Notes under the pieces: model-generated
What the model was told of the DNA's origin: nothing
The model's database searches: none
What the model saw: only the letters and a program-made list of their open reading frames with translations
Part shown: positions 7,147 through 33,847 of the stretch, in pieces
Layout: each line of letters begins with the position of its first letter
Numbering within the stretch: the stretch's first letter is position 1
Program-made: the position numbers and the translations under genes
Origin: Bacteroidales bacterium
GTDB taxonomy: Bacteria > Bacteroidota > Bacteroidia > Bacteroidales > JAAYJT01
DNA: 64,000 nucleotides
Direction: 5' to 3'
Assembly (NCBI GenBank): GCA_014860575.1
Contig: JACZJK010000039.1
Span: 1 to 64,000 of the forward strand

Positions 7147-7156
7147 TCAGAAAGTC

Positions 7157-14881: not shown

Positions 14882-14932
14882 AAATCTGATTCAGAAGTTG
14901 TGCAAGTGAAAACGAAGAACACAAAAAACGCA

Positions 14933-16252
14933 ATGATGAAAATAGAATTTAAATTATTGATATTTTTTATCTCGCTTACCGGATTGTTTGCTTGTTACAA
15001 TGGCGAACCCGGAACAACAGAAAATGCTCCGGTAAAAGTTGAGCTGATAAAAGAATCTTTTGGTTACCAGGTTTATGTAGATGGTGAGCCATTCTATATT
15101 AATGGGGCAGGTTCATCAGGATATAATATTAATTCTGTTGCCAGTCATGGAGGAAACACGATCAGAACATGGAGCACTGGCAGCGATAGGTTTACCGGGC
15201 AACAGATTCTGGACGAAGCCCAAACAAATGGATTAATGGTGCTGATGGGTCTTGATATAGCAAAGGAAAGGCATGGTTTTGACTACGATGATAAGGAAGC
15301 TGTAAAACTACAATTCGAAACTGTGAAGAAAGAGGTACTAAAGTATAAGGACCATCCCGCTTTGCTGGCATGGGGCATCGGAAACGAACTAAACCTGCAT
15401 TACACCAATCAAAAAGTGTGGGATGCCGTGAACGAGATTTCAGAAATGATCAAGGAGTTGGATCCCAATCATCTCACCACAACCATGTTGGCGGGAGCCA
15501 GGGCAAATGATGTCCGGGCTGTGGTTGAAAGTTGCCCTTCACTTGATTTTCTCAGTATTCAACTATATGGCAGCATTGTTAACCTTCCCGATTATATCGC
15601 CGAAAGCGGATACCAGGGCGCTTATGCCGTTACCGAATGGGGTGCAACAGGCCATTGGGAAGTTCCCCTCACGGCCTGGGGACAGCCCATCGAGGAAAAC
15701 AGTCATGTAAAGGCAAAGGCTTACAAAGAACGTTATGAAAAAGTAATCGCCTCCGATGCATACCATTGCATAGGCTCAACGGTGTTCTTATGGGGCCAGA
15801 AACAGGAACGCACTCCCACATGGTACGGCATGTTCCTTGAAAGCGGCGAAAAAACCGAATCAGTGGATGTTATGCAGTATGTTTGGACCGGGGAATGGCC
15901 TGAAAATCGGGCGCCACAACTACAACAATTTCTGTTAAATGGCCAAACAGCTTACGACAATATTTATCTCACTGCTTCAGAGCAAATTGAAGCCAAAGTG
16001 TATGCTACCGATCCTGATGGCGACAATCTCACTTACCGTTGGGAGATGCTTGCCGAAGTACCTCGTGAAAATCATAGCGATGGAGGCGATTTTGAACCAC
16101 GGCCTGAAACCATTTTTGGCCAGGATACTAAGGAAAATACAATCTCCATTACTGCACCTGCAACACCTAGCGAGTATCGCCTTTTTGTCTATGTTTTCGA
16201 CGGGCACAATAACGCAGCAACGGCCAACATTCCTTTTTGTGTGAAGCCATAG
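14933..16252 (+). CDS. Clan GH-A TIM-barrel glycoside hydrolase lipoprotein, family unresolved
   Basis: The ATG at 14933 is preferred over an in-frame GTG at 14900 because it gives a compact lipoprotein leader, MMKIEFKLLIFF to LFAC (Cys21). The catalytic barrel (~30-325) has WGIGNELN (acid/base candidate E152) and AVTEWGATGHWE (nucleophile candidate E235), the spacing of clan GH-A enzymes. An Ig/cadherin-like domain (~340-438, VYATDPDGDNLTYRW) closes it. The barrel resembles GH2/GH5-like enzymes; GH158 (endo-beta-1,3-glucanase, found in laminarin loci of Bacteroides) also has a barrel plus Ig layout, so it is a real alternative. A beta-glucan substrate is inferred from context. Confidence 0.8.
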   Translation: MMKIEFKLLIFFISLTGLFACYNGEPGTTENAPVKVELIKESFGYQVYVDGEPFYINGAGSSGYNINSVASHGGNTIRTWSTGSDRFTGQQILDEAQTNGLMVLMGLDIAKERHGFDYDDKEAVKLQFETVKKEVLKYKDHPALLAWGIGNELNLHYTNQKVWDAVNEISEMIKELDPNHLTTTMLAGARANDVRAVVESCPSLDFLSIQLYGSIVNLPDYIAESGYQGAYAVTEWGATGHWEVPLTAWGQPIEENSHVKAKAYKERYEKVIASDAYHCIGSTVFLWGQKQERTPTWYGMFLESGEKTESVDVMQYVWTGEWPENRAPQLQQFLLNGQTAYDNIYLTASEQIEAKVYATDPDGDNLTYRWEMLAEVPRENHSDGGDFEPRPETIFGQDTKENTISITAPATPSEYRLFVYVFDGHNNAATANIPFCVKP

Positions 16253-16522: not shown

Positions 16523-19500
16523 ATGAAAAAGCAAACCATATTCCTCGGAAACAATGAGATCATCACTGAAAAGTCAGGAGTTTCGGGTCAGTTTTTAGAA
16601 ATGGATGGTGAAAAGTTCTATCAGATAAAAAACTACCAGGAAATGCCCGATTTCTTTATCAGCATCGTGAGCGATTCTGACCATTGGATGTTTATATCAA
16701 GCAACGGTTCACTCACAGCGGGTCGCAAAAACCCTGAGCATGCGCTGTTTCCGTATTATACCGTTGACAAAATCCATGACTACAAAGGCAAAACCGGCAG
16801 CCGTTCATATTTCTTAGTAAGACAAGAAGGTAACACATTTTTATGGGAACCATTTACTGATGATTCGCTGAGGTTTTACAACGCCACGCGCAACATCTAT
16901 AAAAATATTTATGGGAACAAGATCATCTTCGAAGAGATCAACTCTGCACTTGGACTCTGTTTCAGATATGGCTGGTACAATAGCGAAAAATACGGGTTTG
17001 TCAAAGAATCCACCCTCATCAATAACTCCGGCAAACCACTTACTGTTGATGTGCTGGATGGTTTATTGAACATACTTCCTTACGGGGTGGGATATCATTT
17101 TCAGAATGAATTCAGCAACCTGGCGGATGCTTACAAAAAGAATGAAAAAGCCGAAGACAGCACACTGGGCCTTTTCATGCTCAGCGCTATCCCGGTTGAC
17201 CGTGCCGAACCCAGCGAGGCCCTTTTTGCCACTACAGTCTGGTCAACCGGCCTGGGAGAAAAGGTCAATATCCTGATTTCAGATCAGCAGCTGAGTAAAT
17301 TTTTGCAGGGTGAAGCTGTAGAAACTGAAGAAAATATCCGGGCAACGCGTGGAGCATACTTTATCAATTCCCGGCTCAACCTAAAAGTAGATGACAAACA
17401 AAAATGGCTCACCATCGCCGAAATTAACCAGAGTACTACCGATGTTGTGAACCTGAACCAGTTCATTATCAACACTAAAAATCCGGTTGAACTCATCTTG
17501 GCCGACATTGAAAAAGGCTCTGAAAACCTCAGGCGCATGGTATCCCTTTCAGATGGATTCCAGGTAACCAACACCGAAATGTGCTCTGCCCGGCATTACA
17601 CCAATACGCTCTTCAACATTATGAGGGGTGGAGTTTTTGTCAATAATTACATGATTGATAAGGCAGATTTCAAGCGCTACCTATGGCAGATCAACCGCTT
17701 GCTGAGTAAAGAATACCAGCATTGGCTCGACAAACTCCCAGCCAACATTTCTTATGCTGATCTGATTGGCCACACAGAAAAAACCAACGATTCCGACCTG
17801 ATTCGAATCACCGGCGAATACCTGCCCCTGACCTTCAGTCGCCGACATGGCGATCCCAGCAGGCCATGGAACAGGTTCTCCATCGAAACCAAAAACCCTG
17901 ACGGTTCGGTAAAATATTATTACGAAGGCAACTGGCGTGACATCTTCCAGAATTGGGAAGCTCTCTGCCATTCATTTCCTGAATTTACCGAAGGCATTAT
18001 CTCCAAATTCGTCAATTCCTCAACCATTGACGGCTACAACCCTTACCGCATCATGCGCGACGGCATGGATTGGGAAGTTCCCGAACCCAATGACCCCTGG
18101 GCGTATATCGGTTACTGGGGTGACCACCAGATCATTTACCTGCAAAAATTGCTTGAACTTTCTTTCAACTTCCATCCCGGCAAAATCGAACACCTGCTTA
18201 CCAGCAATATTTATACCTACGCCAATGTGCCATACCGCATCAAATCTTATGAAGATATTGTACTGAACCCAAAGGACACCGTTGTTTTCGATTTTGAATT
18301 GGATAAGAAAATCAAAACAGAGGCTGCCTACCTTGGCGCCGATGCCTGCATGCTCAAAAGCAAAGAGGATGAACAAATTTACAAAGTGAACCTGACAGAG
18401 AAAATCCTCGTTGCCCTGCTTTCTAAACTCAGCAACTTTATTCCGGAAGCCGGTATTTGGCTCAACACACAGCGTCCCGAATGGAACGACGCCAACAACG
18501 CCCTGGTAGGCAATGGAACCTCTATGGTTACTTTGTATTACATGCGCAGATTCCTGCATTTCTGGGATAATAAGTTCAGCGGCGTCTCTTTCAGTAGCGT
18601 GAGAATTTCGGAAGAAGTGGCCACTTTGCTTGAAAGCATTCACAAATTCCTGGATGAAAATGCTGCATTGCTCAAGTGTAGAATGTCCGATGCTGACCGG
18701 CTCCGTTTTGCCGATTTTCTTGGTAAAGCACATGCCAAATACCGCGACGAAATTTATAAATATTCATTCTCAGGCGTAAAACGCCAGCTACAGGTGAAAA
18801 ACCTGGTTGCATTTTTCAAGCTTTGCCTGAAGTACATTGATCACTCCATCAGGGCTAATAAGCGAAAAGATGCGTTGTATCATGCTTACAACCTGATTGC
18901 TTTGAAGCCTGATGGCATACGGATCCGTCACCTATATGAGATGCTTGAAGGACAGGTAGCAGTGCTGAGTTCGGGTTACCTAAGCAGCGAGGAAAGCCTG
19001 GAGTTGCTTCATGCCCTGAAAAAAAGCAGTATGTACAGGCAAGATCAGTACAGCTACATGCTTTATCCCGACAGGATTTTACCAGGCTTTACAGAGAAAA
19101 ACTGGGTTCCCGAAGAATTGGTCGAAAAATCAACTTTGCTGAAAAAATTACTTGCCGATAAAAACACTACTATCATTCAGCAGGATGCTCTGGGTGAGTA
19201 TCATTTTAACAGCGCATTCCGAAATGCTGACATGCTGGAAAAAGCCCTGGGCGAACTAAAGGTTGGAAGCTACAGCCAGATTGTTGAGGAAGAAAAGGAT
19301 ACCATACTTTCTATTTATGAAGAAGTATTCGACCATCAGTCGTTTACCGGGCGTTCAGGAACCTTTTTCGGGTACGAAGGCCTGGGTTCTATATACTGGC
19401 ACATGGTTTCAAAACTGCTGCTGGCCACGCAAGAATGTTTCTTCAAGGCGGTGGCCGAAGGCGCCCCTTCAGCTATTACCGGTCAATTAAAGGAGCACTA

Positions 19501-19978
19501 TTATGAGATCAAAGCAGGGATCGGGCTTTACAAAAATCCTGAATTGTATGGCGCTTTCCCTACCGACGCTCACTCCCATACGCCTGCCAATGCAGGTGCC
19601 AAACAACCGGGTCTGACAGGCCAGGTAAAGGAAGATGTAATTGCAAGGTTTGGTGAAATGGCAATTACGGTTGTTAACGGCAATATTGTGTTCGAACCGG
19701 CTTTGGTAAACGAAGACGAAATTCTTAAAGAGAGCCAGGTGTTTGAGTTTATTTCAATAACGGGTGAACCAAGGCAGATATCACTCGAAAAAGGACAAAT
19801 GGGATTTACATTCTGCCTGACACCCATTATACTGGATTTCAGCGGCAAGAAAAAGATCAGTGTTTATTATGCTGATGGAAGCACCGAGGAAATCCCCGGA
19901 CGGGTATTGAACCACCGGATCAGCACCCTGATTTTTAGCCGAAATGGTGAAATTGACCGGTTGTTGGTTTCGGTTTAA
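16523..19978 (+). CDS. GH94/GH149-like beta-glucan phosphorylase (probable beta-1,3-oligoglucan phosphorylase)
   Basis: 1151 residues, no signal peptide, so cytosolic. N-terminal beta-sandwich regions precede an (alpha/alpha)6-like helical domain. EGNWRDIFQNWEAL places the predicted catalytic Asp at 473, and AYIGYWGDHQIIY is the downstream conserved segment. The protein is longer than typical cellobiose or laminaribiose phosphorylases of GH94 (about 800 residues) and nearer the ~1100-residue GH149 beta-1,3-oligoglucan phosphorylases. It would cleave imported beta-1,3-glucooligosaccharides with phosphate to glucose 1-phosphate. It has its own promoter and is followed by a GPH symporter. Superfamily placement is solid; GH149 is inferred from length and context. 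Confidence 0.8.
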   Translation: MKKQTIFLGNNEIITEKSGVSGQFLEMDGEKFYQIKNYQEMPDFFISIVSDSDHWMFISSNGSLTAGRKNPEHALFPYYTVDKIHDYKGKTGSRSYFLVRQEGNTFLWEPFTDDSLRFYNATRNIYKNIYGNKIIFEEINSALGLCFRYGWYNSEKYGFVKESTLINNSGKPLTVDVLDGLLNILPYGVGYHFQNEFSNLADAYKKNEKAEDSTLGLFMLSAIPVDRAEPSEALFATTVWSTGLGEKVNILISDQQLSKFLQGEAVETEENIRATRGAYFINSRLNLKVDDKQKWLTIAEINQSTTDVVNLNQFIINTKNPVELILADIEKGSENLRRMVSLSDGFQVTNTEMCSARHYTNTLFNIMRGGVFVNNYMIDKADFKRYLWQINRLLSKEYQHWLDKLPANISYADLIGHTEKTNDSDLIRITGEYLPLTFSRRHGDPSRPWNRFSIETKNPDGSVKYYYEGNWRDIFQNWEALCHSFPEFTEGIISKFVNSSTIDGYNPYRIMRDGMDWEVPEPNDPWAYIGYWGDHQIIYLQKLLELSFNFHPGKIEHLLTSNIYTYANVPYRIKSYEDIVLNPKDTVVFDFELDKKIKTEAAYLGADACMLKSKEDEQIYKVNLTEKILVALLSKLSNFIPEAGIWLNTQRPEWNDANNALVGNGTSMVTLYYMRRFLHFWDNKFSGVSFSSVRISEEVATLLESIHKFLDENAALLKCRMSDADRLRFADFLGKAHAKYRDEIYKYSFSGVKRQLQVKNLVAFFKLCLKYIDHSIRANKRKDALYHAYNLIALKPDGIRIRHLYEMLEGQVAVLSSGYLSSEESLELLHALKKSSMYRQDQYSYMLYPDRILPGFTEKNWVPEELVEKSTLLKKLLADKNTTIIQQDALGEYHFNSAFRNADMLEKALGELKVGSYSQIVEEEKDTILSIYEEVFDHQSFTGRSGTFFGYEGLGSIYWHMVSKLLLATQECFFKAVAEGAPSAITGQLKEHYYEIKAGIGLYKNPELYGAFPTDAHSHTPANAGAKQPGLTGQVKEDVIARFGEMAITVVNGNIVFEPALVNEDEILKESQVFEFISITGEPRQISLEKGQMGFTFCLTPIILDFSGKKKISVYYADGSTEEIPGRVLNHRISTLIFSRNGEIDRLLVSV

Positions 19979-20047: not shown

Positions 20048-21400
20048 ATGAATAAAATCGTCACAAAACTATCTATTAAGGAAAAAGTAGGGTATGGCCT
20101 GGGCGATACCGCCTCGCATTTTGTGTGGGACATGGTGGGTTTCTGGATATTGATTTTTTATACCGATACTTTCGGGATTTCTGCAGCAGCAGCCGGCACC
20201 ATTATGCTGATAGCCCGTGTTTGGGATATGATCAGCGATCCGTTGATGGGTGTAATTGCCGATCGCACCAACACCCGTTGGGGGAAATTCAGGCCCTACC
20301 TGCTTTGGATGGCACTGCCATACAGCGTGTTGGCGGTTCTCACATTTACTACACCGGATTTTGGCCCAACCGGAAAAGTAATTTATGCAGGAGTTACATA
20401 CTTCCTGCTGATGACCGTTTTCACAGCCATCAACCTGCCCTACTCCTCCCTGGGCGCTGTGATGACCGCCGATTCCTATGAACGGGCGGGACTGAATTCT
20501 TACCGATTTATTTTTGCCTTTATCGGGCAGTTTATCGTGACAGGTACAGCGCTTTACCTTGCCAATTATTTTGGCAAAGGCGATAATGCCAAAGGTTATC
20601 AATACACCCTGATACTTTTTGCGGTAATCAGTTTTATACTATTCATGATCACATTTAAAACCACCCGCGAAAGGGTGAAACCGCCTCCGACTCAACAGAA
20701 AAATCTGAAGGAAGACATCCGCAATTTGTTTCGGAACCGACCATGGGTGATTCTGTTTTTTGTGGGCATCATTTCTTTTATCATGTTTGCTATGCAAAAC
20801 CTTTCCATTGCCTATTACTTCAAATACTATATCGGCAAAGAGGAAAGCGTACAACTGTTCAATATAATAGGAACCATTGCTCTGATCCTTGGTATACCAT
20901 TGTCAAAACCTTTAGCAAAGCGGTTCGGAAAACGAAACGTATATGTTGCCAGTTCGCTGATATCAGGTTTGTTTTTCATCCTGCTTTACATCCCAGGTAA
21001 CAACAACATTTACAGCATTTACATTCTAAACATCCTCGCTAAATTCACTTACGCACCTGCGGTGCCTTTGCTATGGACCATGCTTGCCGATACCGCCGAC
21101 TTTTCTGAATGGAAATTTGGCCGACGTGCCACCGGGCTTGTGTTCTCGGCTGCCACTTTTGCCCAGAAAGCAGGGTGGGGAATTGGCGGCGCACTTGCAG
21201 GATGGATGCTTGCACTTTTCAGGTTTGTGCCGAATATTGAGCAGACTGCAACTTCGCTCAACGGAATAAAACTGATGATATCAGTTTTCCCGGGGGTTCT
21301 TTATATGTCCTGCGCCATACTTCTTTACTTCTATGCAATTGATCATAAAACCTGCATGCTGATGCAAAATGATTTGGAAAAACGAAGGGAAGAATCATAA
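20048..21400 (+). CDS. GPH-family (MelB-like) sugar:cation symporter
   Basis: 450 residues, about 12 membrane helices. Family marks are YGLGDTASHFVWDM at the N-terminus, ISDPLMGVIADRTNTRWGKF between helices 2 and 3, and ADTADFSEWKFGRRATGLVF in the second half. Glycoside-pentoside-hexuronide symporters import oligosaccharides or glycosides with Na+ or H+. Its place 69 bp after the phosphorylase gene suggests it delivers beta-1,3-glucooligosaccharides to that enzyme. A second member of the family is encoded at 30471. Confidence 0.9.
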   Translation: MNKIVTKLSIKEKVGYGLGDTASHFVWDMVGFWILIFYTDTFGISAAAAGTIMLIARVWDMISDPLMGVIADRTNTRWGKFRPYLLWMALPYSVLAVLTFTTPDFGPTGKVIYAGVTYFLLMTVFTAINLPYSSLGAVMTADSYERAGLNSYRFIFAFIGQFIVTGTALYLANYFGKGDNAKGYQYTLILFAVISFILFMITFKTTRERVKPPPTQQKNLKEDIRNLFRNRPWVILFFVGIISFIMFAMQNLSIAYYFKYYIGKEESVQLFNIIGTIALILGIPLSKPLAKRFGKRNVYVASSLISGLFFILLYIPGNNNIYSIYILNILAKFTYAPAVPLLWTMLADTADFSEWKFGRRATGLVFSAATFAQKAGWGIGGALAGWMLALFRFVPNIEQTATSLNGIKLMISVFPGVLYMSCAILLYFYAIDHKTCMLMQNDLEKRREES

Positions 21401-21692: not shown

Positions 21693-24600
21693 ATGAAACA
21701 AATCGTCCTGTTGCAAATTATCCTGAGCTTCTCCATTTCCCTTTTTGGGCAAGCTGGCAGGGTGGATGTGGAAAAAAAAGCAGATGGATGGAGGCTCCAT
21801 GTTAATGGGGAGGCTTTCATGGTAAATGGTATGAACTGGGACTATTTCCCGATTGGAACCAATTACGCTTATAGTTTGTGGAATCAGCCTGACGATTTCA
21901 TAAAAAAGGCGCTTGATGATGAAATGTCATTGCTACAAAACATGGGTGTGAACACCATTCGCGTTTACACAGGCATCCAGCCCAAATGGATCACTTACAT
22001 TTACGAAACCTATGGTATCCATACCATGCTCAACCATTCATTTGGACGATACGGGCTCACACTGGATGGAGCCTGGGTTGGAAATACGGAATATTCTGAC
22101 CCAAGGGCAAGAGAACTTCTGTTAAGGGAGGTAAAAGAACTGGCAGAGGAATACAAAGATACTCCTGGTTTGCTGTTGTATCTGTTGGGCAATGAAAACA
22201 ACTACGGGCTTTTCTGGGGAGGCGCTGAAACGGAAGATATTCCTATGAAAGACAGGGAATCTACCCACAGAGCCCGCCACATGTACAAATTATTCAATGA
22301 GGCTTCATTAGCAATGAAATCCATTGATCCGAACCATCCGGTATCGTTGTGTAACGGCGACCTGCTATTCCTTGATATTATCGCTGAGGAATGTAAGGAT
22401 GTGGATATTTTCGGGATCAATGTTTATCGCGGTATTTCATTTACTGATTTATTCGATAAGGCCAAAAGAGATTATGATAAACCACTATTATTAACTGAGT
22501 TTGGTTCGGATGCATTCAATGCCATCACTAAGGAGGAAGCCCAGCGTGAACAAGCAATTTATAATGTAGCCAACTGGAGAGAGATTTATGAAAACGCTGC
22601 CGGCCTCGGAAAAGCGGGTAATTCAATTGGTGGCTTTACTTTTCAATTCAGTGATGGTTGGTGGAAATATGGCCAGACCAAGGACCTGGATGTACATAAC
22701 ACCAATGCTTCCTGGGCAAATGGCGGATATTTGTTCGACTACGCTCCAGGCGAAAACAACATGAATGAGGAGTGGTTTGGTATTTGCGCCAAAGGGCCCA
22801 CTGATGAAGCGGGATTCTATCAATTATTTCCCAGGGCTTCATATTATTCCTTAAAAGAGGTCCATCAGTTTGATCCATATGCATCGGGTACTTCATTAAG
22901 AACCATTCAGCAACATTTTGATGGCATTCGCATTGTTGATGCCGCTTTAAAAGCCAGGGGGGATAAGGCAGCCCTCGAAGGCGAAAAGCTTAAAAAAATC
23001 AGCCTTAGCCGGTTGGGTGCAGAACTAACAACTTTTAACACAGGTGGCAGTTTAATTACCACTCCTGATGATCCCATCCCTGGCAGTAATAAATATCCCG
23101 ATCAGCTGGGTTTTGATCACATGCAGTCATTTTTTATCGGCGTTCAGGCCAATCCGGCGCCCAACTTCAGTGCCAATGTTGAGATAAACGCATTGGGAAA
23201 TGTAGCACAAAACCCGATAGATGAGATTTTTTATGAAAACCGAGGCCGACGCGTAGAATTAGGCGGAGATAATGGCAATGTGAGTTTAGAATCGTTAAAC
23301 AGGGTGCAGGTTTACCAGGCCAGTTACGATTGGAACCACAAATGGTTTAATGCAAAAGGCTTTTATCGAACCGGTCATTATCACTGGGGCTATGAAGGAG
23401 ATTTCTTCGGCTTGTACCCCGAAGCCAATTATGGCCCTCAGATTGACATTTATAACGGTATCGCACCTTTTGGTATGGAGGTGGAAGGCAAAAGGCAATT
23501 TAAAAATTTCACCCTGGCTTTTGGCCCTCAACTGTGGTGGGGAGCCAACCCGGCAGTTTTACTCAAGTATAACAAGAAATTCGGAAACAATACTTTCACC
23601 GGTATTTTCCATGAAGACCTCGATCAATTAGGACTCACTGAAAGTTCTTTTGCGATCCCGCAACCCAAAACCAGGAGGCTGACACTGCATATGAACAGAG
23701 AGTTTGGAAAGTTTGAAGTTGATTTAGGAGGTATCTGGGCAGGACAGCCACTCCAGGGAAGAGAATTTCAGGTGGTGAGAGGAGAAGAGGGTAACTATAG
23801 TGTTTACAAAGATGAAATTAAGCCGGAAGATAATTTTGGTGGTAAAATCAAACTTAGCTATGCCAGCGGCAGGTTCAATTGGTACGGACAATCTGCTATT
23901 ATGGGGCTGGTTGCGCAAGGCGGCGTTGATCAAACCCTTACTTTTACCGGATGGAGATTGAAAGATAGCGGCAGCGGCAACCAGTATAATGTTCTTTCCG
24001 GATTCACCTACATGATTGGTGATCTGCAGATTGGACCAAATTTTCTATGGCAAAAGCCAATTGAAGGCCCAATTCCGGCAGCAGTTGCATCTCCCGGAAG
24101 ACCAAGAAATATTCTTGATGACCCCTTCGTGGTAAGAGCCAACAGGGAACAACTGGCTGCTGAAATTCTATTTACCTACGACCCGACTCCCGGTTCATGG
24201 ATGTATAACTGGGACAGCGATAAAAGCGAGGATGCAGAATTAGCTGTTAGCCTGGGCTTCGTATATCGTCATTTGCCCACTACCCAGGATGCTGCCATCG
24301 GCATTCTGCCTGATGGGCGCACACCATTTGCTTTCCCGGGTGCGCCACCGGCAAAAGATTTGTGGGAGGTTCACGCAAGGCTGGTTTCCAAACCAACCAA
24401 AGATTTTGGGCTTATTGCCAATTTGTATGCCGGCGATGCACAGGCCAACGGTAGCGACGACCGCACCATCAGCCGTTATGGCGTGGATTTAAGGATGATC
24501 TTTAAAAATATTAAACTCACTTCATTTGCCAGGATCAACGACTGGGGTCCGTATGATTATCACCGCGATTATAATTTAACTTTCCCGCTGCAACTTATGG

Positions 24601-24827
24601 CTGACATCTCAACTTCATTGGGAAAACCCGATTGGTTCGCGCTGCCGGCAACCAGCATCGGTATCCGGGCAACCTATCGTACACTCGATAAATATTCCCC
24701 TCGCTATGCTCCAACCTGGACAGTGGATGCTGCCGGAAACCGGGTTCCTGATCCTATGGCCATTGGTTTTGACAATGGTAACGAATGGGAAATCAGAACT
24801 TACGTGATCATAAATATTGGTAAATAA
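21693..24827 (+). CDS. GH-A TIM-barrel glycosidase fused to a C-terminal outer-membrane beta-barrel-like domain
   Basis: 1044 residues; cleavable-type signal MKQIVLLQIILSF to SLFGQ, no lipobox. Residues ~20-410 are a clan GH-A barrel: LLGNENNYGL (acid/base candidate E168) and LLTEFGSDAF (nucleophile candidate E269), related to the catalytic domain at 14933. Residues ~450-1044 lack any enzyme motif. They alternate polar and aromatic residues in short strands (FTLAFGPQLWWG, LELAVSLGFVYRH-like segments) and end EWEIRTYVIINIGK, as in porin-like barrels. The enzyme would thus be anchored in the outer membrane by its own barrel. The barrel assignment is by pattern only. Position favours action on laminarin or a related beta-glucan. 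Confidence 0.72.
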   Translation: MKQIVLLQIILSFSISLFGQAGRVDVEKKADGWRLHVNGEAFMVNGMNWDYFPIGTNYAYSLWNQPDDFIKKALDDEMSLLQNMGVNTIRVYTGIQPKWITYIYETYGIHTMLNHSFGRYGLTLDGAWVGNTEYSDPRARELLLREVKELAEEYKDTPGLLLYLLGNENNYGLFWGGAETEDIPMKDRESTHRARHMYKLFNEASLAMKSIDPNHPVSLCNGDLLFLDIIAEECKDVDIFGINVYRGISFTDLFDKAKRDYDKPLLLTEFGSDAFNAITKEEAQREQAIYNVANWREIYENAAGLGKAGNSIGGFTFQFSDGWWKYGQTKDLDVHNTNASWANGGYLFDYAPGENNMNEEWFGICAKGPTDEAGFYQLFPRASYYSLKEVHQFDPYASGTSLRTIQQHFDGIRIVDAALKARGDKAALEGEKLKKISLSRLGAELTTFNTGGSLITTPDDPIPGSNKYPDQLGFDHMQSFFIGVQANPAPNFSANVEINALGNVAQNPIDEIFYENRGRRVELGGDNGNVSLESLNRVQVYQASYDWNHKWFNAKGFYRTGHYHWGYEGDFFGLYPEANYGPQIDIYNGIAPFGMEVEGKRQFKNFTLAFGPQLWWGANPAVLLKYNKKFGNNTFTGIFHEDLDQLGLTESSFAIPQPKTRRLTLHMNREFGKFEVDLGGIWAGQPLQGREFQVVRGEEGNYSVYKDEIKPEDNFGGKIKLSYASGRFNWYGQSAIMGLVAQGGVDQTLTFTGWRLKDSGSGNQYNVLSGFTYMIGDLQIGPNFLWQKPIEGPIPAAVASPGRPRNILDDPFVVRANREQLAAEILFTYDPTPGSWMYNWDSDKSEDAELAVSLGFVYRHLPTTQDAAIGILPDGRTPFAFPGAPPAKDLWEVHARLVSKPTKDFGLIANLYAGDAQANGSDDRTISRYGVDLRMIFKNIKLTSFARINDWGPYDYHRDYNLTFPLQLMADISTSLGKPDWFALPATSIGIRATYRTLDKYSPRYAPTWTVDAAGNRVPDPMAIGFDNGNEWEIRTYVIINIGK

Positions 24828-24841
24828 AAAATCTTAACAAT

Positions 24842-26704
24842 ATGAACACAAATATTCTTATTCGTTTTCTAAATTATATCCCCATTGGGATGCTTGCATT
24901 GCTTTTGATGGGCTGCGAGCGCGATCTCGAAGATTTATCTCCGGTTACCAATTCTACCAATCCGTTGGTGTTTATTGACGATTTCAGCGCAGGCTTGAAT
25001 TATGCAGCTTTTGGAGGCTCGATTCCCACAGCTTTTGATGTTGACAACAAAGTAACCTACAACAATTCTTCCGCTTCTATGAGATTTGATGTGCCCAATG
25101 CCAACGACCCCAATGGATTATACGCCGGCGGAGTGTTTTTTACGGAATCGGGCAGGGATTTGTCAGGCTTCACTGCCTTGACATTCTGGGCCAAAGCTTC
25201 ACAATCAGCCATACTTAATGTTGTTGGTTTTGGGAACGATCTCGGAGCGTCAAAATATCAGACTTCGATTTCGGACCTGGCCATAAGTACCGCCTGGCAG
25301 AAATATTACATTCCAGTTCCTGATCCCTCACGGCTCACAAATGAGCGAGGCATGTTTTTCTACTCTGTTGCTCCTATTGAGGGCAAAGGTTTTTCTTTCT
25401 GGATTGATGAGTTGAAATTCGAAAATCCTGGAACCATTGCGCATCCTCAGTTTACCATTCTGAATGGTGAGGATCAGACCGAGACTGCTTTTATTGGAGT
25501 CGAAAAAGCAATTGGTGGCCTGACTTCAATTTTTAATTTGCCAAACGGGATAAACCAGGCAGTGAATATTACACCAGCATATTTTGAGTTCACATCTTCC
25601 GATACAACCATTGCAAAGGTTGATGCAACAGGGAGAGTAATGGTTACCGGAGGCCCCGGAAATGCTGAAATCACAGCAAGTGTTAGGGATGTTATTGCCG
25701 AAGGTTCGCTCATGGTTCAATCGGAAGGCGCTTTTGAAAATGCTCCGGTTCCCACTTTAGATCCTTCAAATGTTATTTCAATATTCAGTGATATTTATCC
25801 TAACGTACCGGTGGAATACTACAATGGTTATTGGGCACCATACCAAACTACACTTTCTGCTGACTTTGAAGTAGGCGGTGACCATATCCTCCATTACACC
25901 GATTTCAATTTTGTAGGTATCGAGTTTAGCGCTCCTACAATTGATGCTACTTCTATGACACATTTGTACATGGACATCTTTATACCGAACCAACTATCGG
26001 CAAATGCAAAAATGAAATTTGAGATAGTAGATGATGCGGGTGGCGGAACGGGTGCTTTCTTTAAGGACATTCCAGTTTCAATGTCGCAGCAATGGGTAAG
26101 AATTGACATGCCATTCGAGGACATTGCCGGGTTGAATAGCAGAGCAGCCCTCATGCAAATCATCTTTGTGAATGAAAGTGGCAATATTTCGAACTTCTAT
26201 GCTGATAATATCCTGTTCTACAACGACGGCACTCCGCCTCCCCCGCTTGAAGAACCTGAGACCCAGGCGCCCACACCCACACATCCTGCTGCCAATGTGA
26301 TTGCAATTTATAGTGATTCTTACGAGGTCCTTCCCGGAACGGATTATCCCGATTGGGGTCAACTAACAGTAGTTTCTGAAGTACAAATTCAGGGAAACAA
26401 CACATTAAAATTTGCCGGCCTCAATTACCAGGGAATTCAATTGGGAAGCAGTCAGAATGTTTCAGCGATGAATTTTTTACATCTGGATTTCTGGACGGCT
26501 AATTCCACGCTACTTAAAGTGTGGCTCATCAGCCCGGGGCCAGTGGAAAAAGAATTTTCATTAACGGTTCCAACCACAGGCTGGGCAAGTATTGATATTC
26601 CAATGTCAGCCTTCGCACCAGTCAATTTGAGTGATGTAATTCAACTTAAGTTCGACGGTAACGGCGACATCTGGTTAGACAATATTTATTTCCGTAAGAA
26701 TTAA
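24842..26704 (+). CDS. Multidomain carbohydrate-binding surface lipoprotein
   Basis: 620 residues; lipobox LLLMGC (Cys25). In order: a galactose-binding-like domain (~40-195, FSFWIDELKFENPG), a bacterial Ig-like (Big_2) domain (~200-290, DATGRVMVTGGPGNAEITAS), then two jelly-roll modules (~305-465 and ~475-620). The last ends LDNIYFRKN and is clearly related to the central module of the exported protein at 33848 (shared IQLKF and WLDNIYF-type ends, AVISIFS-like starts). No catalytic motif. It begins 14 bp after the fusion glycosidase and precedes a GH16 gene, so a surface glucan binder co-expressed with those enzymes is the best reading. Confidence 0.8.
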   Translation: MNTNILIRFLNYIPIGMLALLLMGCERDLEDLSPVTNSTNPLVFIDDFSAGLNYAAFGGSIPTAFDVDNKVTYNNSSASMRFDVPNANDPNGLYAGGVFFTESGRDLSGFTALTFWAKASQSAILNVVGFGNDLGASKYQTSISDLAISTAWQKYYIPVPDPSRLTNERGMFFYSVAPIEGKGFSFWIDELKFENPGTIAHPQFTILNGEDQTETAFIGVEKAIGGLTSIFNLPNGINQAVNITPAYFEFTSSDTTIAKVDATGRVMVTGGPGNAEITASVRDVIAEGSLMVQSEGAFENAPVPTLDPSNVISIFSDIYPNVPVEYYNGYWAPYQTTLSADFEVGGDHILHYTDFNFVGIEFSAPTIDATSMTHLYMDIFIPNQLSANAKMKFEIVDDAGGGTGAFFKDIPVSMSQQWVRIDMPFEDIAGLNSRAALMQIIFVNESGNISNFYADNILFYNDGTPPPPLEEPETQAPTPTHPAANVIAIYSDSYEVLPGTDYPDWGQLTVVSEVQIQGNNTLKFAGLNYQGIQLGSSQNVSAMNFLHLDFWTANSTLLKVWLISPGPVEKEFSLTVPTTGWASIDIPMSAFAPVNLSDVIQLKFDGNGDIWLDNIYFRKN

Positions 26705-26742: not shown

Positions 26743-27576
26743 ATGAATACGATAAATAAATTCAGGAAAATGCAATTCAGTTATCTACTGCTCCTTTCAT
26801 TTCTTGCATTCCCAAGCTGCGAACGCGACGATTTTCAGAAACTGGACGAACGCAAGTGGGAACTCGTTTGGAGCGATGATTTTAACGGCACTGCCGGAGA
26901 ATTGCCCGATGCCTCTAAATGGGGTTTTGATCTGGGAACCGGGCAAGATGGCTGGGGGAACCAGGAATTGCAGAATTATACCAACGATCCGGCCAACGTA
27001 TCGCTTGATGGTGAAGGCAAACTTGTAATCACAGCAATAAAAAGTGGCAACAGTTTTACATCGGCCAGAATTAAAACACAAGGTTTGTTTTCGCAACAAT
27101 ATGGCCGTTTTGAAGCCAGGTTGAAAACCCCCTATGGCCCTGGTTTGTGGCCTGCATTCTGGATGCTTGGCAACAACATTGAAACCGTTGGCTGGCCCCA
27201 ATGTGGTGAAATAGACATCATGGAACTCAGGGGGCAGCAGCCTCATATCGTTCATGGTACTATTCACGGTCCTGGATATTCAGGTGGGAATCCGGTAACA
27301 AAGAATTACACGTTGAACAATGCTCGCTTTGATACCGACTTCAACATTTTCGCCATTGAATGGGATGAAAATAAAATAGACTTTTTCGTAAATGATTATT
27401 TGTATCAACGCATCACACCAGATGATGTACCAGGTGAATGGGTGTATGACCAGCCTTTCTTTATTCTCCTGAATGTGGCAGTTGGAGGTAATTATGTTGG
27501 ATTTCCGCTTCCACAAACACCTTTCCCGCAAAAAATGATAATTGATTATGTAAGAGTTTATAAAAAAGCAAGCTGA
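26743..27576 (+). CDS. GH16 laminarinase-type endo-beta-1,3-glucanase lipoprotein
   Basis: 277 residues; lipobox LAFPSC (Cys26). An internal ATG at codon 10 (26770) would also give a valid lipoprotein leader. It is a single GH16 domain: WGNQELQNYTND near the start, LWPAFWMLGNN, and the catalytic GEIDIMELRG (nucleophile E156, D158, acid/base E161). It lacks the PKD spacers of the GH16 at 11858, so it may act closer to the membrane or in the periplasm. It would cut internal beta-1,3 bonds in laminarin-like glucans. It lies between the binding lipoprotein and the GH17 gene in a tight same-strand run. Confidence 0.93.
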   Translation: MNTINKFRKMQFSYLLLLSFLAFPSCERDDFQKLDERKWELVWSDDFNGTAGELPDASKWGFDLGTGQDGWGNQELQNYTNDPANVSLDGEGKLVITAIKSGNSFTSARIKTQGLFSQQYGRFEARLKTPYGPGLWPAFWMLGNNIETVGWPQCGEIDIMELRGQQPHIVHGTIHGPGYSGGNPVTKNYTLNNARFDTDFNIFAIEWDENKIDFFVNDYLYQRITPDDVPGEWVYDQPFFILLNVAVGGNYVGFPLPQTPFPQKMIIDYVRVYKKAS

Positions 27577-27649: not shown

Positions 27650-28927
27650 ATGAAAAGAATTTTACCCTTTCTGATTTCACTATTAGCAGCTCTGCTGGTG
27701 ATCTCCTGCACTCAAAGCCCGGATCACACAGGTAAAACGGCAGCTGAGATATTAGGTAATCCCGGGTACCAGGCAATTTCTTATGGTGGTTATCGTGAGA
27801 TCACCAGGGACATTCAGCCCACTATTCCTCAGCTAAAAGAAGACATGAAAATTTTGTCAGCGCTGGGAATTAAGCTTTTGCGAACCTATAATGTGTATTA
27901 TGATGAAACAGCCAATCTGCTGGATGCAATCAGCCAACTTAAGCAGCAAGACCCTGAATTTGAGATGTATCTGATGCTGGGCGTCTGGATTGATTGCAAA
28001 AACGCCTTTACCGATCTGCCGGATCGTATCCGTCATGAAGAAAGCGAAGAGAATGCCGGCGAAATTGCCCGCGCTGTTGAGTTGGCAAAGAAATATCCTG
28101 ACATCGTTAAAATCATTGCGGTAGGCAACGAGGCCATGGTGCACTGGGCCTGGAATTATTATGTTGAACCCGGTATCATACTGAAATGGGTGAATCATTT
28201 GCAGGAACTGAAAAAAGCTGGCGACTTGCCGGAAACTCTGTGGATCACAAGCTCCGACAATTTTGCATCCTGGGGCGGTGGCGGCAGCGAGTACCATAAT
28301 GAAGACCTCAAAGAACTCATCAAGGCGGTGGACTTTATCTCCATGCACACCTATCCCATGCACGATACGCATTACAATCCTGATTTCTGGGGAGTGCGGG
28401 ACGAAGAAGAAAATCTTCCGGATCTGGAAAAAACCCATGCAGCCATGCAGCGTGCGCATGATTACGCTAAAACTCAATACCAAAGTGTAGTGGACTATAT
28501 GCAAAGTCTTGGCATAAACAAACCGGTGCATATCGGCGAAACCGGCTGGTCAACACAATCCAATGAGCATTATGGCGATGAAGGTTCCCGGGCAACAGAT
28601 GAGTATAAATCAGCTCTGTATCACCAGCTCACACGCGAATGGACGGATAAAGCGGGTATTACTTGTTTCTATTTCATTGGTTTTGACGAACAATGGAAGG
28701 ATGCCGCCAATCCCCTGGGTTCGGAAAATCATTTTGGGCTGATCAACCTGCAGGCACAAGCAAAATATGCTTTGTGGGATTTGGTAGATGCCGGAATATT
28801 CGAAGGTTTGACCCGCGATGGGCAGCCCATCACCAAAACATTTAACGGCGACAAGCAAGCGATGATGAAAACCGTGAAGGTTCCACCAACCGACATAGAA
28901 ATTCAGGCGCGCAAAACACAAAACTAA
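27650..28927 (+). CDS. GH17 beta-1,3-glucan-active lipoprotein
   Basis: 425 residues; lipobox LLVISC (Cys20). The TIM barrel starts ISYGGYREITRD with the ILSALGIKLLRTYNVYY strand usual in GH17. AVGNEAMVHW gives acid/base E161 and HIGETGWSTQ gives nucleophile E297. GH17 enzymes cleave or transglycosylate beta-1,3-glucans. As a lipoprotein beside GH16 and GH30 it probably works on laminarin fragments at the surface or in the periplasm. Two further GH17 proteins without export signals are encoded at 31937 and 32838. Confidence 0.9.
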   Translation: MKRILPFLISLLAALLVISCTQSPDHTGKTAAEILGNPGYQAISYGGYREITRDIQPTIPQLKEDMKILSALGIKLLRTYNVYYDETANLLDAISQLKQQDPEFEMYLMLGVWIDCKNAFTDLPDRIRHEESEENAGEIARAVELAKKYPDIVKIIAVGNEAMVHWAWNYYVEPGIILKWVNHLQELKKAGDLPETLWITSSDNFASWGGGGSEYHNEDLKELIKAVDFISMHTYPMHDTHYNPDFWGVRDEEENLPDLEKTHAAMQRAHDYAKTQYQSVVDYMQSLGINKPVHIGETGWSTQSNEHYGDEGSRATDEYKSALYHQLTREWTDKAGITCFYFIGFDEQWKDAANPLGSENHFGLINLQAQAKYALWDLVDAGIFEGLTRDGQPITKTFNGDKQAMMKTVKVPPTDIEIQARKTQN

Positions 28928-28933
28928 AACACG

Positions 28934-30436
28934 ATGAAAATAAACTTTAAAATCCCGGCAGTACTTTTTCTCTTACTAATCCTGATAAGCAGTTGTATGA
29001 GCCAGAAAAAAATGGACGCAGATATTTTTGAAACTTCCGAAAGCGGGAACAAACTCACCAAAATGACCGAATTCCCGGAAACAGAAGCGAAAGCTGAAAT
29101 CTCGCTATTACCTGACGAAAAATTCCAGACCATCACCGGATTTGGCGGTTCCTTTACTGAAGCTTCCGCCTACCTGCTCAATCAGTTGAGTCTAGAAAAC
29201 CGCAACATAATCCTTGAAGCCTATTTTGGCGAATCGGGCGCCAGGTATTCGCTTACCCGAACCCATATGAACTCAAGCGATTTTTCATTAGGCAACTATT
29301 CTTATGCATCGGTGGAAAATGATATGGAACTAAAACATTTCTCCATTGAGGAAGATATGGACGACATCATTCCCATGATCAAAGATGCCATGGCCATTTC
29401 AAAAGATGGGTTCAAAATTATTTCATCACCCTGGTCTGCCCCGCCCTGGATGAAGGATAACAAAGACTGGAAGGGTGGGAAATTACTACCTGAATATTAC
29501 GACACCTGGGCTTTGTTTTTCTCCAAATACCTTGATGCCTACCGCACACAAGGCATTGAAATCTGGGCTATTACGGTTGAGAACGAACCCCTGGGCAACG
29601 ACAGCAATTGGGAAAGCATGCATTTTACACCTCAGGAGCAAAATGATTTTGTGATAAACCATTTAGGCCCAAAACTCAGGGCTGACGGGCAAGAGGTAAA
29701 GATCTTCGGTTTCGATCAGAACCGCGATGATGAAATGATAAAGTGGGTGGATGTGATGTATGACGATGAAATAGCACGGGATTTCTACGATGGCACTGCC
29801 GTACATTGGTATGCCAGTACTTATGATTTCTTTCCTGATGCGCTGCAGTATGCTCATCAAAAAGCTCCTGACAAACACCTGATAAACACCGAAGCTTGTG
29901 TGGATGCTGAAGTTCCCAAATGGCAGGACGATGCCTGGTACTGGTCCAAAGAAGCTACCGACTGGGGCTGGGACTGGGCACCGGAACAACACAAATACCG
30001 CCACCCAAAGTATGTACCTGTATTCAGGTATGCCCGCGATATAATCGGATGCCTCAACAATTGGGTTGATGGCTGGGTTGACTGGAACATGGTACTTAAC
30101 AGGCAGGGTGGCCCCAATTGGGCCAACAATTGGTGCGTAGCCCCTGTGATTGTGGACCCTGATCAGGATGAAGTGTATTTCACGCCCTTGTATTACACAC
30201 TGGCACATTTCAGCAGGTTTATAAGACCAGGCGCCGTCAGGATTGGGTTCGAAAATCCGGATGAAGACCTGATGGTAACTGCCGCTCAGAATCCTGATGG
30301 CAGTATTGCGGTCGTCATTTTTAATCCTAACGAAGAAGAAAAAGGAATTAAACTATCGCTGCAGGAAAAATCAATGGATTTTGCCATCAGCGGAAAAGCA
30401 GTTCAAACTATTTTAATTCCGGGATCACAAAAATAA
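28934..30436 (+). CDS. GH30-family beta-glucosidase/beta-1,6-glucanase lipoprotein
   Basis: 500 residues; lipobox ILISSC (Cys21). TITGFGGSFTEASAYLLNQL and YSLTRTHMNSSDFSLGNY are classic GH30 segments. ITVENEPLG contains acid/base E218 and LINTEACVDAE the nucleophile E320; a C-terminal beta-sandwich wraps the barrel (~430-500). Starts 6 bp after the GH17 stop. GH30 members of Bacteroidota glucan loci commonly hydrolyse beta-1,6-linked glucose; removal of laminarin side branches is the likely task. Glucosylceramidase-type annotation reflects the family, not this context. Confidence 0.9.
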   Translation: MKINFKIPAVLFLLLILISSCMSQKKMDADIFETSESGNKLTKMTEFPETEAKAEISLLPDEKFQTITGFGGSFTEASAYLLNQLSLENRNIILEAYFGESGARYSLTRTHMNSSDFSLGNYSYASVENDMELKHFSIEEDMDDIIPMIKDAMAISKDGFKIISSPWSAPPWMKDNKDWKGGKLLPEYYDTWALFFSKYLDAYRTQGIEIWAITVENEPLGNDSNWESMHFTPQEQNDFVINHLGPKLRADGQEVKIFGFDQNRDDEMIKWVDVMYDDEIARDFYDGTAVHWYASTYDFFPDALQYAHQKAPDKHLINTEACVDAEVPKWQDDAWYWSKEATDWGWDWAPEQHKYRHPKYVPVFRYARDIIGCLNNWVDGWVDWNMVLNRQGGPNWANNWCVAPVIVDPDQDEVYFTPLYYTLAHFSRFIRPGAVRIGFENPDEDLMVTAAQNPDGSIAVVIFNPNEEEKGIKLSLQEKSMDFAISGKAVQTILIPGSQK

Positions 30437-30470: not shown

Positions 30471-31901
30471 ATGTCAGCTTACGCTACACCCTTAAAAGAC
30501 AAAGTCCCATTGGGACAAAAAGCCGCCTTTGGGGCTGGCCACTTAGTCAACAACTTACTACCAGGTTCTTTAGGCGTTTTCGCTTTCTTTTTGCTAACGG
30601 CCTTTGGAATGGATCCCTTCCTGGCCGGTTTGCTTGGCGGTTTGCCGCGATTTTTTGATGCCATTACTGACCCTATCATGGGCTATATTTCGGATAATAC
30701 CAAATCGAGATTTGGTCGCAGGAAACCATATATTTTTATCGGAGCTATTCTCAGCGGTATTTTGTTTGCCGTTTTATGGCAACTCTATCCGGACAATTCA
30801 CAGCTATACAATTTCTGGTATTTCCTGATTTTTTCAATGATATACCTGATTGGCAACACCATGTTTTCCACCCCGCTCATTGGATTGGGCTATGAAATGA
30901 CCTTTGATTACAATGAAAGAACCCGTTTGATGGGTTTTTCACAAACCCTTGGGCAAGTAGCCTGGATGATCGTTCCCTGGTTTTGGGTATTGATCGCTAA
31001 TCCTGATTTATTTGAAACCCAGGCAATAGGTGTACGAAGGCTTTCGGTCATTGTCGGAGCCGCCTGCATGATCCTCGGTTTAATGCCGGCTTTATTCTGC
31101 AAAGAAATTGACCAGGCCAACCTGACAAACCGCGACGATCTTACCTTAAAAAATATTGCCCGGAATTTCAAGGGCTTGTTGAAGGGAATGAAGCAGGTGT
31201 TCAGGAATGCTCCTTTTGTGAAGCTTTGCGGAGCAACATTTTTGGTCTTCAACGGATTCCAGATGGTGGCATCATTCAGCTACTTCATCATTGTTTTTTA
31301 TATGTTCAAGGGCGATTACGGCCTGGCAGGAACATGGCCGGCATGGTTCTCAACAATCAGCGCTGTAACAACTGCCTTTTTGATCATCCCGCTTATCACA
31401 TGGATGTCGAACCGCTGGGGTAAAAGAAATGCATTTATAATTTCAACAGCCATCTCGATGGTAGGTTATGCCCTGAAATGGTGGGGCTTCAATCCTGAAA
31501 ACCCATGGATGATCTTCATGCCCATTCCTTTGATGGTGTTTGGTATTGGCGGCCTTTTTACCCTGATGATGAGCATGACCGCAGATGTTTGCGATCTGGA
31601 TGAGCTTACTAATGGAATGCCAAGAAAAGAAGGAACATTTGGTGCTATTTACTGGTGGATGGTGAAGTTGGGCCAGGGCCTGGCACTTGTATTGGGTGGT
31701 CTGGTTCTCAAGCTGGTTGGCTTTGACCAAAATGCTGCACAACAAACAGCCGATACCATCACCAACCTCAGACTCGCTGATATTATTGTTCCGGCATTCA
31801 CCGCCGGGCTTGCCATTATAGTAATGTGGAAATATGATATGACCGAAGAAAAGGCAAGAGGTATCAAAGATGAGTTGGTGAAAAGAAGAGGAGAGTTGTA
31901 A
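30471..31901 (+). CDS. Second GPH-family (MelB-like) symporter
   Basis: 476 residues, about 12 membrane segments. RFFDAITDPIMGYISDNTKS followed by RFGRRKPYIF is the GPH/MelB loop 2-3 signature, and ADVCDLDELTNGMPRKEGTF is the matching helix-10/11 motif. It starts 34 bp after the GH30 stop and is followed by two leaderless GH17 genes, which suggests it imports short beta-glucans for those cytosolic enzymes. By eye it is only distantly similar to the symporter at 20048, so the two may have different chain-length or linkage preference. Confidence 0.9.
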   Translation: MSAYATPLKDKVPLGQKAAFGAGHLVNNLLPGSLGVFAFFLLTAFGMDPFLAGLLGGLPRFFDAITDPIMGYISDNTKSRFGRRKPYIFIGAILSGILFAVLWQLYPDNSQLYNFWYFLIFSMIYLIGNTMFSTPLIGLGYEMTFDYNERTRLMGFSQTLGQVAWMIVPWFWVLIANPDLFETQAIGVRRLSVIVGAACMILGLMPALFCKEIDQANLTNRDDLTLKNIARNFKGLLKGMKQVFRNAPFVKLCGATFLVFNGFQMVASFSYFIIVFYMFKGDYGLAGTWPAWFSTISAVTTAFLIIPLITWMSNRWGKRNAFIISTAISMVGYALKWWGFNPENPWMIFMPIPLMVFGIGGLFTLMMSMTADVCDLDELTNGMPRKEGTFGAIYWWMVKLGQGLALVLGGLVLKLVGFDQNAAQQTADTITNLRLADIIVPAFTAGLAIIVMWKYDMTEEKARGIKDELVKRRGEL

Positions 31902-33776: not shown

Positions 33777-33847
33777 AAACAATAAAATGTCTATTGAAAG
33801 GAGTAGGCAAAAAATTCAAATATTTATTAACTACTAATTCAATCATT

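Follow-up and report, generated by a model that had tools for sequence, protein, structure and literature searches.

A glucanase-like domain fused to a predicted outer-membrane beta-barrel in beta-glucan loci of Bacteroidota and Balneolota

Polymer uptake in Bacteroidota is taught as the work of SusCD together with TonB, in which SusC forms a plugged, TonB-dependent barrel. LamB and chitoporin are smaller, trimeric barrels without a fused enzyme. The type Va and Vd autotransporter enzymes EstA and PlpD possess barrels of 12 or 16 strands, and their passenger is secreted. Here, we describe a gene that joins a glucanase-like domain to what is predicted to be an outer-membrane beta-barrel. It lies at 21693-24827 on the forward strand of a 64,000-nucleotide window, the whole stretch of DNA that was analysed, from a Bacteroidales bacterium (contig JACZJK010000039.1, positions 1 to 64,000). 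The fusion, its barrel and the conservation of both are well supported. The protein shares an N-terminal enzyme and a C-terminal barrel with EstA and PlpD, but its barrel is predicted to have 24 strands. It would act like the sugar-specific porins LamB and chitoporin, and chitoporin 7vu2 is a fold match of its full-length model.

The closest published idea that we found operates at the other membrane. In Formosa, according to the part of the account consulted (PMC6246565), a laminarin enzyme is likewise joined to a transporter within a laminarin locus. That protein is an inner-membrane major facilitator superfamily (MFS) carrier with a C-terminal GH17 domain, whereas the present one pairs an outer-membrane barrel with an N-terminal GH-A domain. 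The SusCD utilisome, as portrayed in the consulted sections of PMC7618045, likewise unites an outer-membrane barrel, surface lipoproteins and a glycanase in one uptake machine. Its enzyme is a separate protein, whereas here the enzyme is covalently attached, probably periplasmic, and accompanied by no plug or TIGR04056 match. Literature searches, made in open-access texts only, found no published account of this fusion.

Domain architecture and predicted fold

The open reading frame (ORF) list and the translation of the window give a single frame with an ATG start, encoding 1044 residues. Read together with alignments and AlphaFold2 models, it comprises a signal peptide, a catalytic domain, a short helical linker and a barrel. 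The signal peptide, placed by eye at about residues 1-20 (21693-21752), has no lipobox, coincides with a modelled helix at residues 2-18, and ends in a glutamine (Q20) that is invariant in the family alignment.

The catalytic domain spans residues ~24-395 (21762-22877), as judged from comparisons with PDB sequences and folds. The original prediction had seen in this front half a clan GH-A barrel with both catalytic glutamates, and this holds: the PDB and fold matches are to GH-A barrels, and E168 (22194-22196, motif GNEN) and E269 (22497-22499, motif TEFG), the predicted acid/base and nucleophile, are invariant in 49 of 49 aligned sequences. In the profile alignment these residues fall on the NE and E of GH158, which are catalytic there according to the part of PMC7157763 consulted. 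With a modelled TIM barrel and two catalytic glutamates, the domain is, on this prediction, a member of clan GH-A.

Its family is less sharply defined. Pfam matches to GH2_C, Glyco_hydro_cc and Glyco_hydro_72 all lie below cut-off. Against PDB sequences, phmmer returned GH158 structures 9oro (E 1.2e-5) and 6pal (E 8e-4), and a profile of 37 sequences returned 6pal at E 2.5e-7. A VIA comparison of the AlphaFold2 front half gave Z scores of 25.8-27.6 for GH157 and GH158, and barrels of GH2 and GH5 scored equally well (25.3-27.6 among the matches listed). Sequence comparison thus places the domain closest to GH158, and by fold it is inseparable from GH157, GH2 and GH5. The closest solved catalytic domains by sequence, 9oro and the laminarinase BuGH158 (6pal), share the NE/E pair, although identity between BuGH158 and the fusion is only ~14-21% in structural alignments. 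BuGH158 also differs in being a separate lipoprotein, expected at the surface and without a barrel, in the portion of PMC7157763 consulted; the fusion carries its barrel with it. Elsewhere in the window, a second GH-A protein (14900-16252) with a lipobox-like N-terminus shows weak similarity to the catalytic domain of the fusion (E 0.024).

In the AlphaFold2 models, a helical linker (residues 402-429; 22896-22979), also present in most relatives that lack the barrel, leads into a 24-stranded domain at residues 436-1042 (22998-24818), for which AlphaFold2, Foldseek and VIA together point to an outer-membrane beta-barrel. The full-length model, built from 62 sequences, shows a TIM barrel, the helices and then long strands (predicted local distance difference test score, pLDDT, 78.4; predicted template modelling score, pTM, 0.61). 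A model of the C-terminal part alone, from 91 sequences, has the identical 24 main strands (pLDDT 80.4, pTM 0.76). These two scores describe each model as a whole, not the placement of one domain against the other. For the C-terminal model, all 50 matches listed by Foldseek and all 50 listed by VIA are membrane beta-barrels. The best fold matches among those listed are the 24-stranded ushers PapC and FimD (top Z 14.0, root-mean-square deviation 5.4, 364 residues aligned), and AlgE appears in both searches. Thus, the C-terminal porin-type barrel that was originally proposed is borne out. A soluble beta-sandwich or carbohydrate-binding module (CBM), the fold that would have spoken against it, appears in neither model and is ruled out by these and the fold searches.

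The strands alternate in polarity as membrane strands do (z 5.9; none of 5000 shuffles scored as high, the null being shuffles and not a soluble-protein control), using family-averaged hydrophobicity with values for W and Y that we had raised. Two short polar hairpins (521-532 and 691-708) were assigned to the loops; if either or both were placed in the barrel wall instead, the strand total would still be even. In the models, the domain therefore has the marks of an outer-membrane beta-barrel: an even number of strands, amphipathic character, and short and long connections on opposite sides.

Conservation was averaged over 62 sequences, with lumen and lipid faces assigned from hydrophobicity. 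Lumen-facing positions (0.795) and long loops (0.770) equal the catalytic domain (0.781) in conservation, and positions facing the lipid fall lower (0.663). Three loops rich in aromatic and charged residues stand out: a long one rich in Y, G, D and E at residues 559-592 (23367-23468; mean 0.94), the nearly invariant LWWGANP at 614-620 (23532-23552; 0.99), and WGPYDYHRDYNLT at 951-963 (24543-24581; 0.95). Because lumen and long loops are conserved like the enzyme, a working pore is suggested rather than a plain anchor. The barrel had first been taken to replace the lipoprotein anchor; the missing lipobox agrees with that part of the idea, and the conservation pattern suggests more than a mere anchor.

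Pfam has no match to the C-terminal half of the window protein, a barrel profile found nothing among PDB sequences, and across the barrel family Pfam gave weak matches only (best E 0.013, in at most 4 of 37 members), none convincing. The fusion matches neither TIGR04056 nor a Pfam plug, as SusC/RagA proteins would; the window's own SusC scored 801.9 bits in the same scan. The Pfam scan of the fusion also gave no autotransporter, POTRA or usher match, although ushers are the nearest fold. The protein does not fit the type Va autotransporters, a class defined by 12 strands and an Autotransporter match in Pfam, since 24 strands are predicted and Pfam gives no such match. Nor does it fit the fimbrial ushers, a class defined by its Pfam family, plug and periplasmic domains, as the Pfam scan gave no usher match.

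Which side of the membrane the enzyme occupies can be judged from the connections between strands. On one side they are short: 8 of the 11 have 2-3 residues, and the remaining three have 6, 12 and 21. On the other they run from 7 to 36 residues (n=12). The first strand begins and the last strand ends on the short side, and only 3-6 residues separate the linker helix from strand 1 in both models. The short-turn side of solved bacterial outer-membrane barrels is the periplasm. Given the even strand count, this short/long pattern and the starting side of the first strand, the catalytic domain is likely periplasmic in the model, and the short gap should place it right at the periplasmic mouth. The original prediction had the enzyme feeding its product through the barrel; the predicted topology reverses this, as a periplasmic enzyme would be fed by the barrel.

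Distribution, neighbourhoods and barrel-less relatives

Scanning of genome contigs recovered at least 584 relatives. The best 80 all span both domains at 64-86% identity, and 78 of them contain no stop inside the match. The records are mostly named Bacteroidota or Balneolota, with single ones labelled Calditrichia, KSB1 and Thermoanaerobaculia. The last of these, a 5.8 kb contig (L058) from a metagenome-assembled genome with an Acidobacteriota label, groups among Saprospiraceae copies and is probably mis-binned. The fusion occurs in 28 of 296 phylum genomes (one copy, in G263, is cut by the contig end) and in 17 of 395 class genomes, a set overlapping the first; all 17 barrel matches in the class genomes are open frames of 1041-1093 residues. 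With relatives in so many genomes, a one-off or an assembly artefact is ruled out. In a set of 60 genomes treated as related, the fusion is confined to the genome of the window, and three others have weak catalytic matches; the distribution of the gene is therefore patchy.

The barrel does not appear to lead a separate existence. Of the 296 phylum genomes, its profile matched 30: the 28 with the fusion, plus G294, where the copy is broken, and G178, where the matching stretch follows a stop. No free-standing barrel was found in these or in the 395 partly identical class genomes, and barrel-bearing partial matches in G382, G394 and G427 run into contig ends. On the evidence of these genomes, we reject the barrel as a free-standing family.

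Alignments were restricted in several ways. L068 and L079, with a stop inside the match, were kept out of the full-length alignments, and the barrel half of L079 was retained in the barrel alignment. The motif filter for the barrel set (94 rows) missed L068, L069, L075, L078, L101, L104 and L109, and the set also lacks the short L021 and L111. The barrel alignment itself holds 90 of the 94 rows (all but L046, L047, L050 and L093) plus the window. A distant fused relative, G453 (L223, an open frame of 940 residues), shares ~37% identity over 898 columns. It keeps both catalytic glutamates and many loop residues, among them H564, W565, W616, W754, W951 and H957, but lacks others, for example E515, Y575 and R1004. 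At this distance, it shows the family to be broader than the 54-86% set analysed.

The fusion is nearly always followed directly by the same lipoprotein gene, here called the partner. Two overlapping collections were used, the named loci and a fused-genome set (n=38; G391 and G453, on short contigs, and other fused genomes fall outside it), and since they contain identical rows their counts are not independent. Among named loci whose downstream sequence reaches 400 bases or more, 78 of 78 have the partner as the next gene, and it is adjacent, at 8-291 bases, in 36 of 38 of the fused-genome set; G203 has a partner homologue farther upstream in the locus. Glucan enzymes follow. All 66 named loci that extend 7.9 kb or more beyond the fusion have a downstream GH16 gene, and their examined flanks contain a phosphorylase in 53, GH17 in 48 and GH30 in 33.

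By comparison, SusCD is usually missing nearby. Among 53 named loci flanked by ~7-8 kb on either side, SusC and SusD occur in the flanks of one and are absent from those of the other 52; L065, outside this set, has a short SusC piece. Of 27 fused-genome loci whose two flanks each measure 8 kb or more, 24 have no SusCD in them, and the three that have it are all from one family. The shorter or weaker TonB-receptor-like matches were not counted as SusC. Searched with a SusC family model, each of the 10 genomes tested yielded over-cut-off SusC genes, and only G285 and G162 have them less than 20 kb from the fusion; this test scored at most ~35 candidates per genome, fewer than the first-look number in 7 of the 10. 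A search for the same fusion in other SusCD loci had been proposed at the outset. The fusion proved widespread, and most fused loci turned out to have no SusCD nearby.

The window itself resembles G285 and G162, with a SusC-SusD module upstream at 4105-8638. All genes given here with a source of annotation lie on the forward strand. The module consists of SusC (4105-7146; TIGR04056, 801.9 bits) and a SusD-like lipoprotein (7157-8638; NCBIfam SusD and NanU, below cut-off), preceded by a regulator with Reg_prop, Y_Y_Y and LuxR-type domains at 924-3818. Closer to the fusion stand a beta-1,3-oligosaccharide phosphorylase with no evident signal peptide (16523-19978; PDB 6hq6, 1260.3 bits), which we take to be of the GH149 type, and an MFS sugar transporter (20048-21400; domain scan). 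Directly downstream is the partner lipoprotein (24842-26704; Pfam and export signature), whose lipobox is followed by acidic residues and which is predicted to be surface-exposed. It has CBM_11 and Big_2 matches just under the Pfam cut-off, no SusD match in the Pfam scan, and no match among PDB sequences. Then come a GH16 glucanase lipoprotein, also predicted at the surface (26743-27576; Pfam and signature), a GH17-like lipoprotein just under the Pfam cut-off (27650-28927; Pfam), a GH30 lipoprotein (28934-30436; Pfam), and an inner-membrane MFS sugar transporter (30471-31901; Pfam). Neither the GH17-like nor the GH30 lipoprotein has a surface-export signature.

Beyond this transporter gene, two GH17-family proteins (31937-32872 and 32838-33776) have N-termini that look free of signal peptides by eye, and from sequence they are possibly cytosolic glucan enzymes. 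Parts of the protein at 33794-35662, which has a type IX secretion sorting domain, are shared by the partner lipoprotein, and several fused loci have comparable stretches nearby.

Catalytic-only copies occur in families whose copies group with records named Balneolota; another order has them too. We read 25 of these barrel-less relatives, many on short contigs, setting aside G388 (a copy with stops) and G502. In no case does a partner gene lie within 3 kb; 14 of the 25 have at least 2 kb on both sides. One 11-genome family contains both forms. Its four fused copies all have the partner and no SusCD in their flanks (one copy has flanks of only 8.3 and 0.7 kb). Of its five barrel-less copies, four lack the partner and share their contig with SusC and/or SusD (12-15 kb away in G182), and the fifth sits on a 6-kb contig. 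Outside this family, a partial SusC lies ~9 kb from the barrel-less copy in G439.

In a 57-row tree of catalytic domains, all five barrel-less copies from that family group in a single clade (99/97). Next to it stand fused copies, most of which carry a Balneolota label or belong to the same family. This tree omits the outgroups, L166 (the G301 copy), L068, L070, L079, L111 and many near-copies. Gain and loss of the barrel are decided neither by this tree, which has no outgroup, nor by one with two outgroup rows, which sit on branches of length 10. Better evidence for loss comes from G178 and G392, where ~55 residues of barrel homology remain behind a stop, so the barrel was lost there. G392 (L228, L251) has both an intact fusion and the barrel-less copy with this remnant.

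The N-termini of the 25 barrel-less relatives, read by eye, comprise ~11 with a signal peptide only and 14 that are lipoprotein-like, G369 being ambiguous. A rough signature of surface export is two or more acidic residues at positions +2 to +5, after the part of PMC5080379 consulted. By eye, it is present in 2 of the 14. Scored by script among lipobox-bearing copies, it occurs in 39 of 85 partners, 43 of 67 GH16, 5 of 7 SusD, 1 of 49 GH17 and 0 of 22 GH30 proteins. As most barrel-less copies lack the signature, the enzyme without its barrel looks periplasmic, in agreement with the topology.

A possible uptake unit and competing explanations

We favour, with moderate confidence, a reading in which the fusion is a self-contained outer-membrane uptake unit for beta-1,3(/1,6)-glucan oligosaccharides, with a periplasmic enzyme at the barrel mouth. 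The barrel would be a plug-less porin with a conserved, loop-lined lumen, and the GH158-like domain would hang directly beneath its periplasmic opening. At the surface, the partner lipoprotein may bind glucan while GH16 makes fragments of it. These fragments would pass the barrel and be cut on emerging, which would take them out of the gradient and make entry one-way. Periplasmic GH17 and GH30 enzymes could trim them further, MFS carriers would move the products inward, and the GH149-type phosphorylase would finish the work in the cytosol. Computation gives the fusion, the predicted barrel fold, the catalytic residues, the conservation, the gene neighbourhood and the barrel remnants behind some barrel-less copies; we infer transport and its direction, the substrate, the role of the lipoprotein, the periplasmic side of the enzyme and independence from TonB. 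A broader proposal is that Bacteroidota and Balneolota possess a second glycan route, plug-less, SusCD-free and probably TonB-free, in which a glucanase pulls chains in by cutting them, assisted by a lipoprotein that is not SusD. This we hold tentatively, as a claim slightly more apt to fail than to stand.

Several observations weigh against these proposals. Both models were built on alignments spanning 54-86% identity, and the polarity pattern is missing from strands 436-453 and 905-917, two of the 24. NCBIfam weakly matched TonB-dependent hemin receptors to residues 706-768 (E 0.043, well short of the cut-off), which hints at TonB-receptor-like strands in the barrel, and shorter TonB-receptor-like matches lie within ~20 kb of the fusion in G190, G093, G250, G379 and G392. 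The surface-export signature is a statistical cue only, and the partner shows it in under half of its copies. In G448, a fused copy has neither partner nor glucan genes within 9.3 kb upstream and 2.4 kb downstream. Because the window and three of the 27 well-flanked loci have SusCD upstream, the unit is not simply a SusCD replacement in these loci. Neither SusCD nor the partner is present in at least six reasonably well-flanked barrel-less loci (G301, G393, G430, G421, G369 and G504), so an exchange of barrel for SusCD is not general. The simple rule that the barrel replaces SusCD held in one family and failed once more barrel-less loci were read, and that claim is weakened.

The barrel might also be a minor addition that only keeps the enzyme near the outer membrane, with import handled by SusCD elsewhere. 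SusCD is present upstream in the window and in the three loci just mentioned, SusC genes exist elsewhere in all ten genomes tested, and barrel-less forms exist, some without local SusCD. We consider this explanation rather unlikely, as lumen and long loops are conserved like the enzyme, 24 of 27 fused loci have no local SusCD, and the fusion is closely paired with a lipoprotein that barrel-less forms lack.

The barrel might instead serve mainly as an anchor, with the enzyme threaded through the pore and displayed outside as in type V secretion. The order, enzyme first and barrel last, is that of autotransporters, a helix lies just before the barrel, and the relative BuGH158 is expected at the cell surface in the part of PMC7157763 consulted. 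Yet Pfam gives no autotransporter or POTRA match, and the linker helix belongs to the enzyme, since most barrel-less relatives keep it. Type V barrels have 12 or 16 strands, against the 24 predicted here; helix and barrel stand just 3-6 residues apart, and conservation of the lumen residues is strong. Display is, in our view, improbable. Least credible of all, and very improbable, is export, in which a periplasmic hydrolase would trim a polysaccharide secreted through an AlgE/BcsC/PgaA-like porin: AlgE is among the fold matches, and exporters with a periplasmic glycosidase exist for cellulose and alginate, but no glycosyltransferase was named among the scanned window genes (924-35662), and the surroundings are catabolic (GH16, GH17, GH30, phosphorylase, MFS and the Reg_prop/Y_Y_Y/LuxR-type regulator).

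If the uptake unit is real, a conserved porin-enzyme fusion in beta-glucan loci, often without local SusCD, would represent another solution to glycan uptake. It would explain loci that are now called incomplete, and provide a marker gene for the use of laminarin and fungal glucan in metagenomes. Enzyme-driven, TonB-free import would become testable. The fusion may couple an enzyme to a transporter at the outer membrane, as a mirror of the MFS-GH17 fusion at the inner membrane. Should transport be shown, it would constitute a new kind of outer-membrane glycan uptake.

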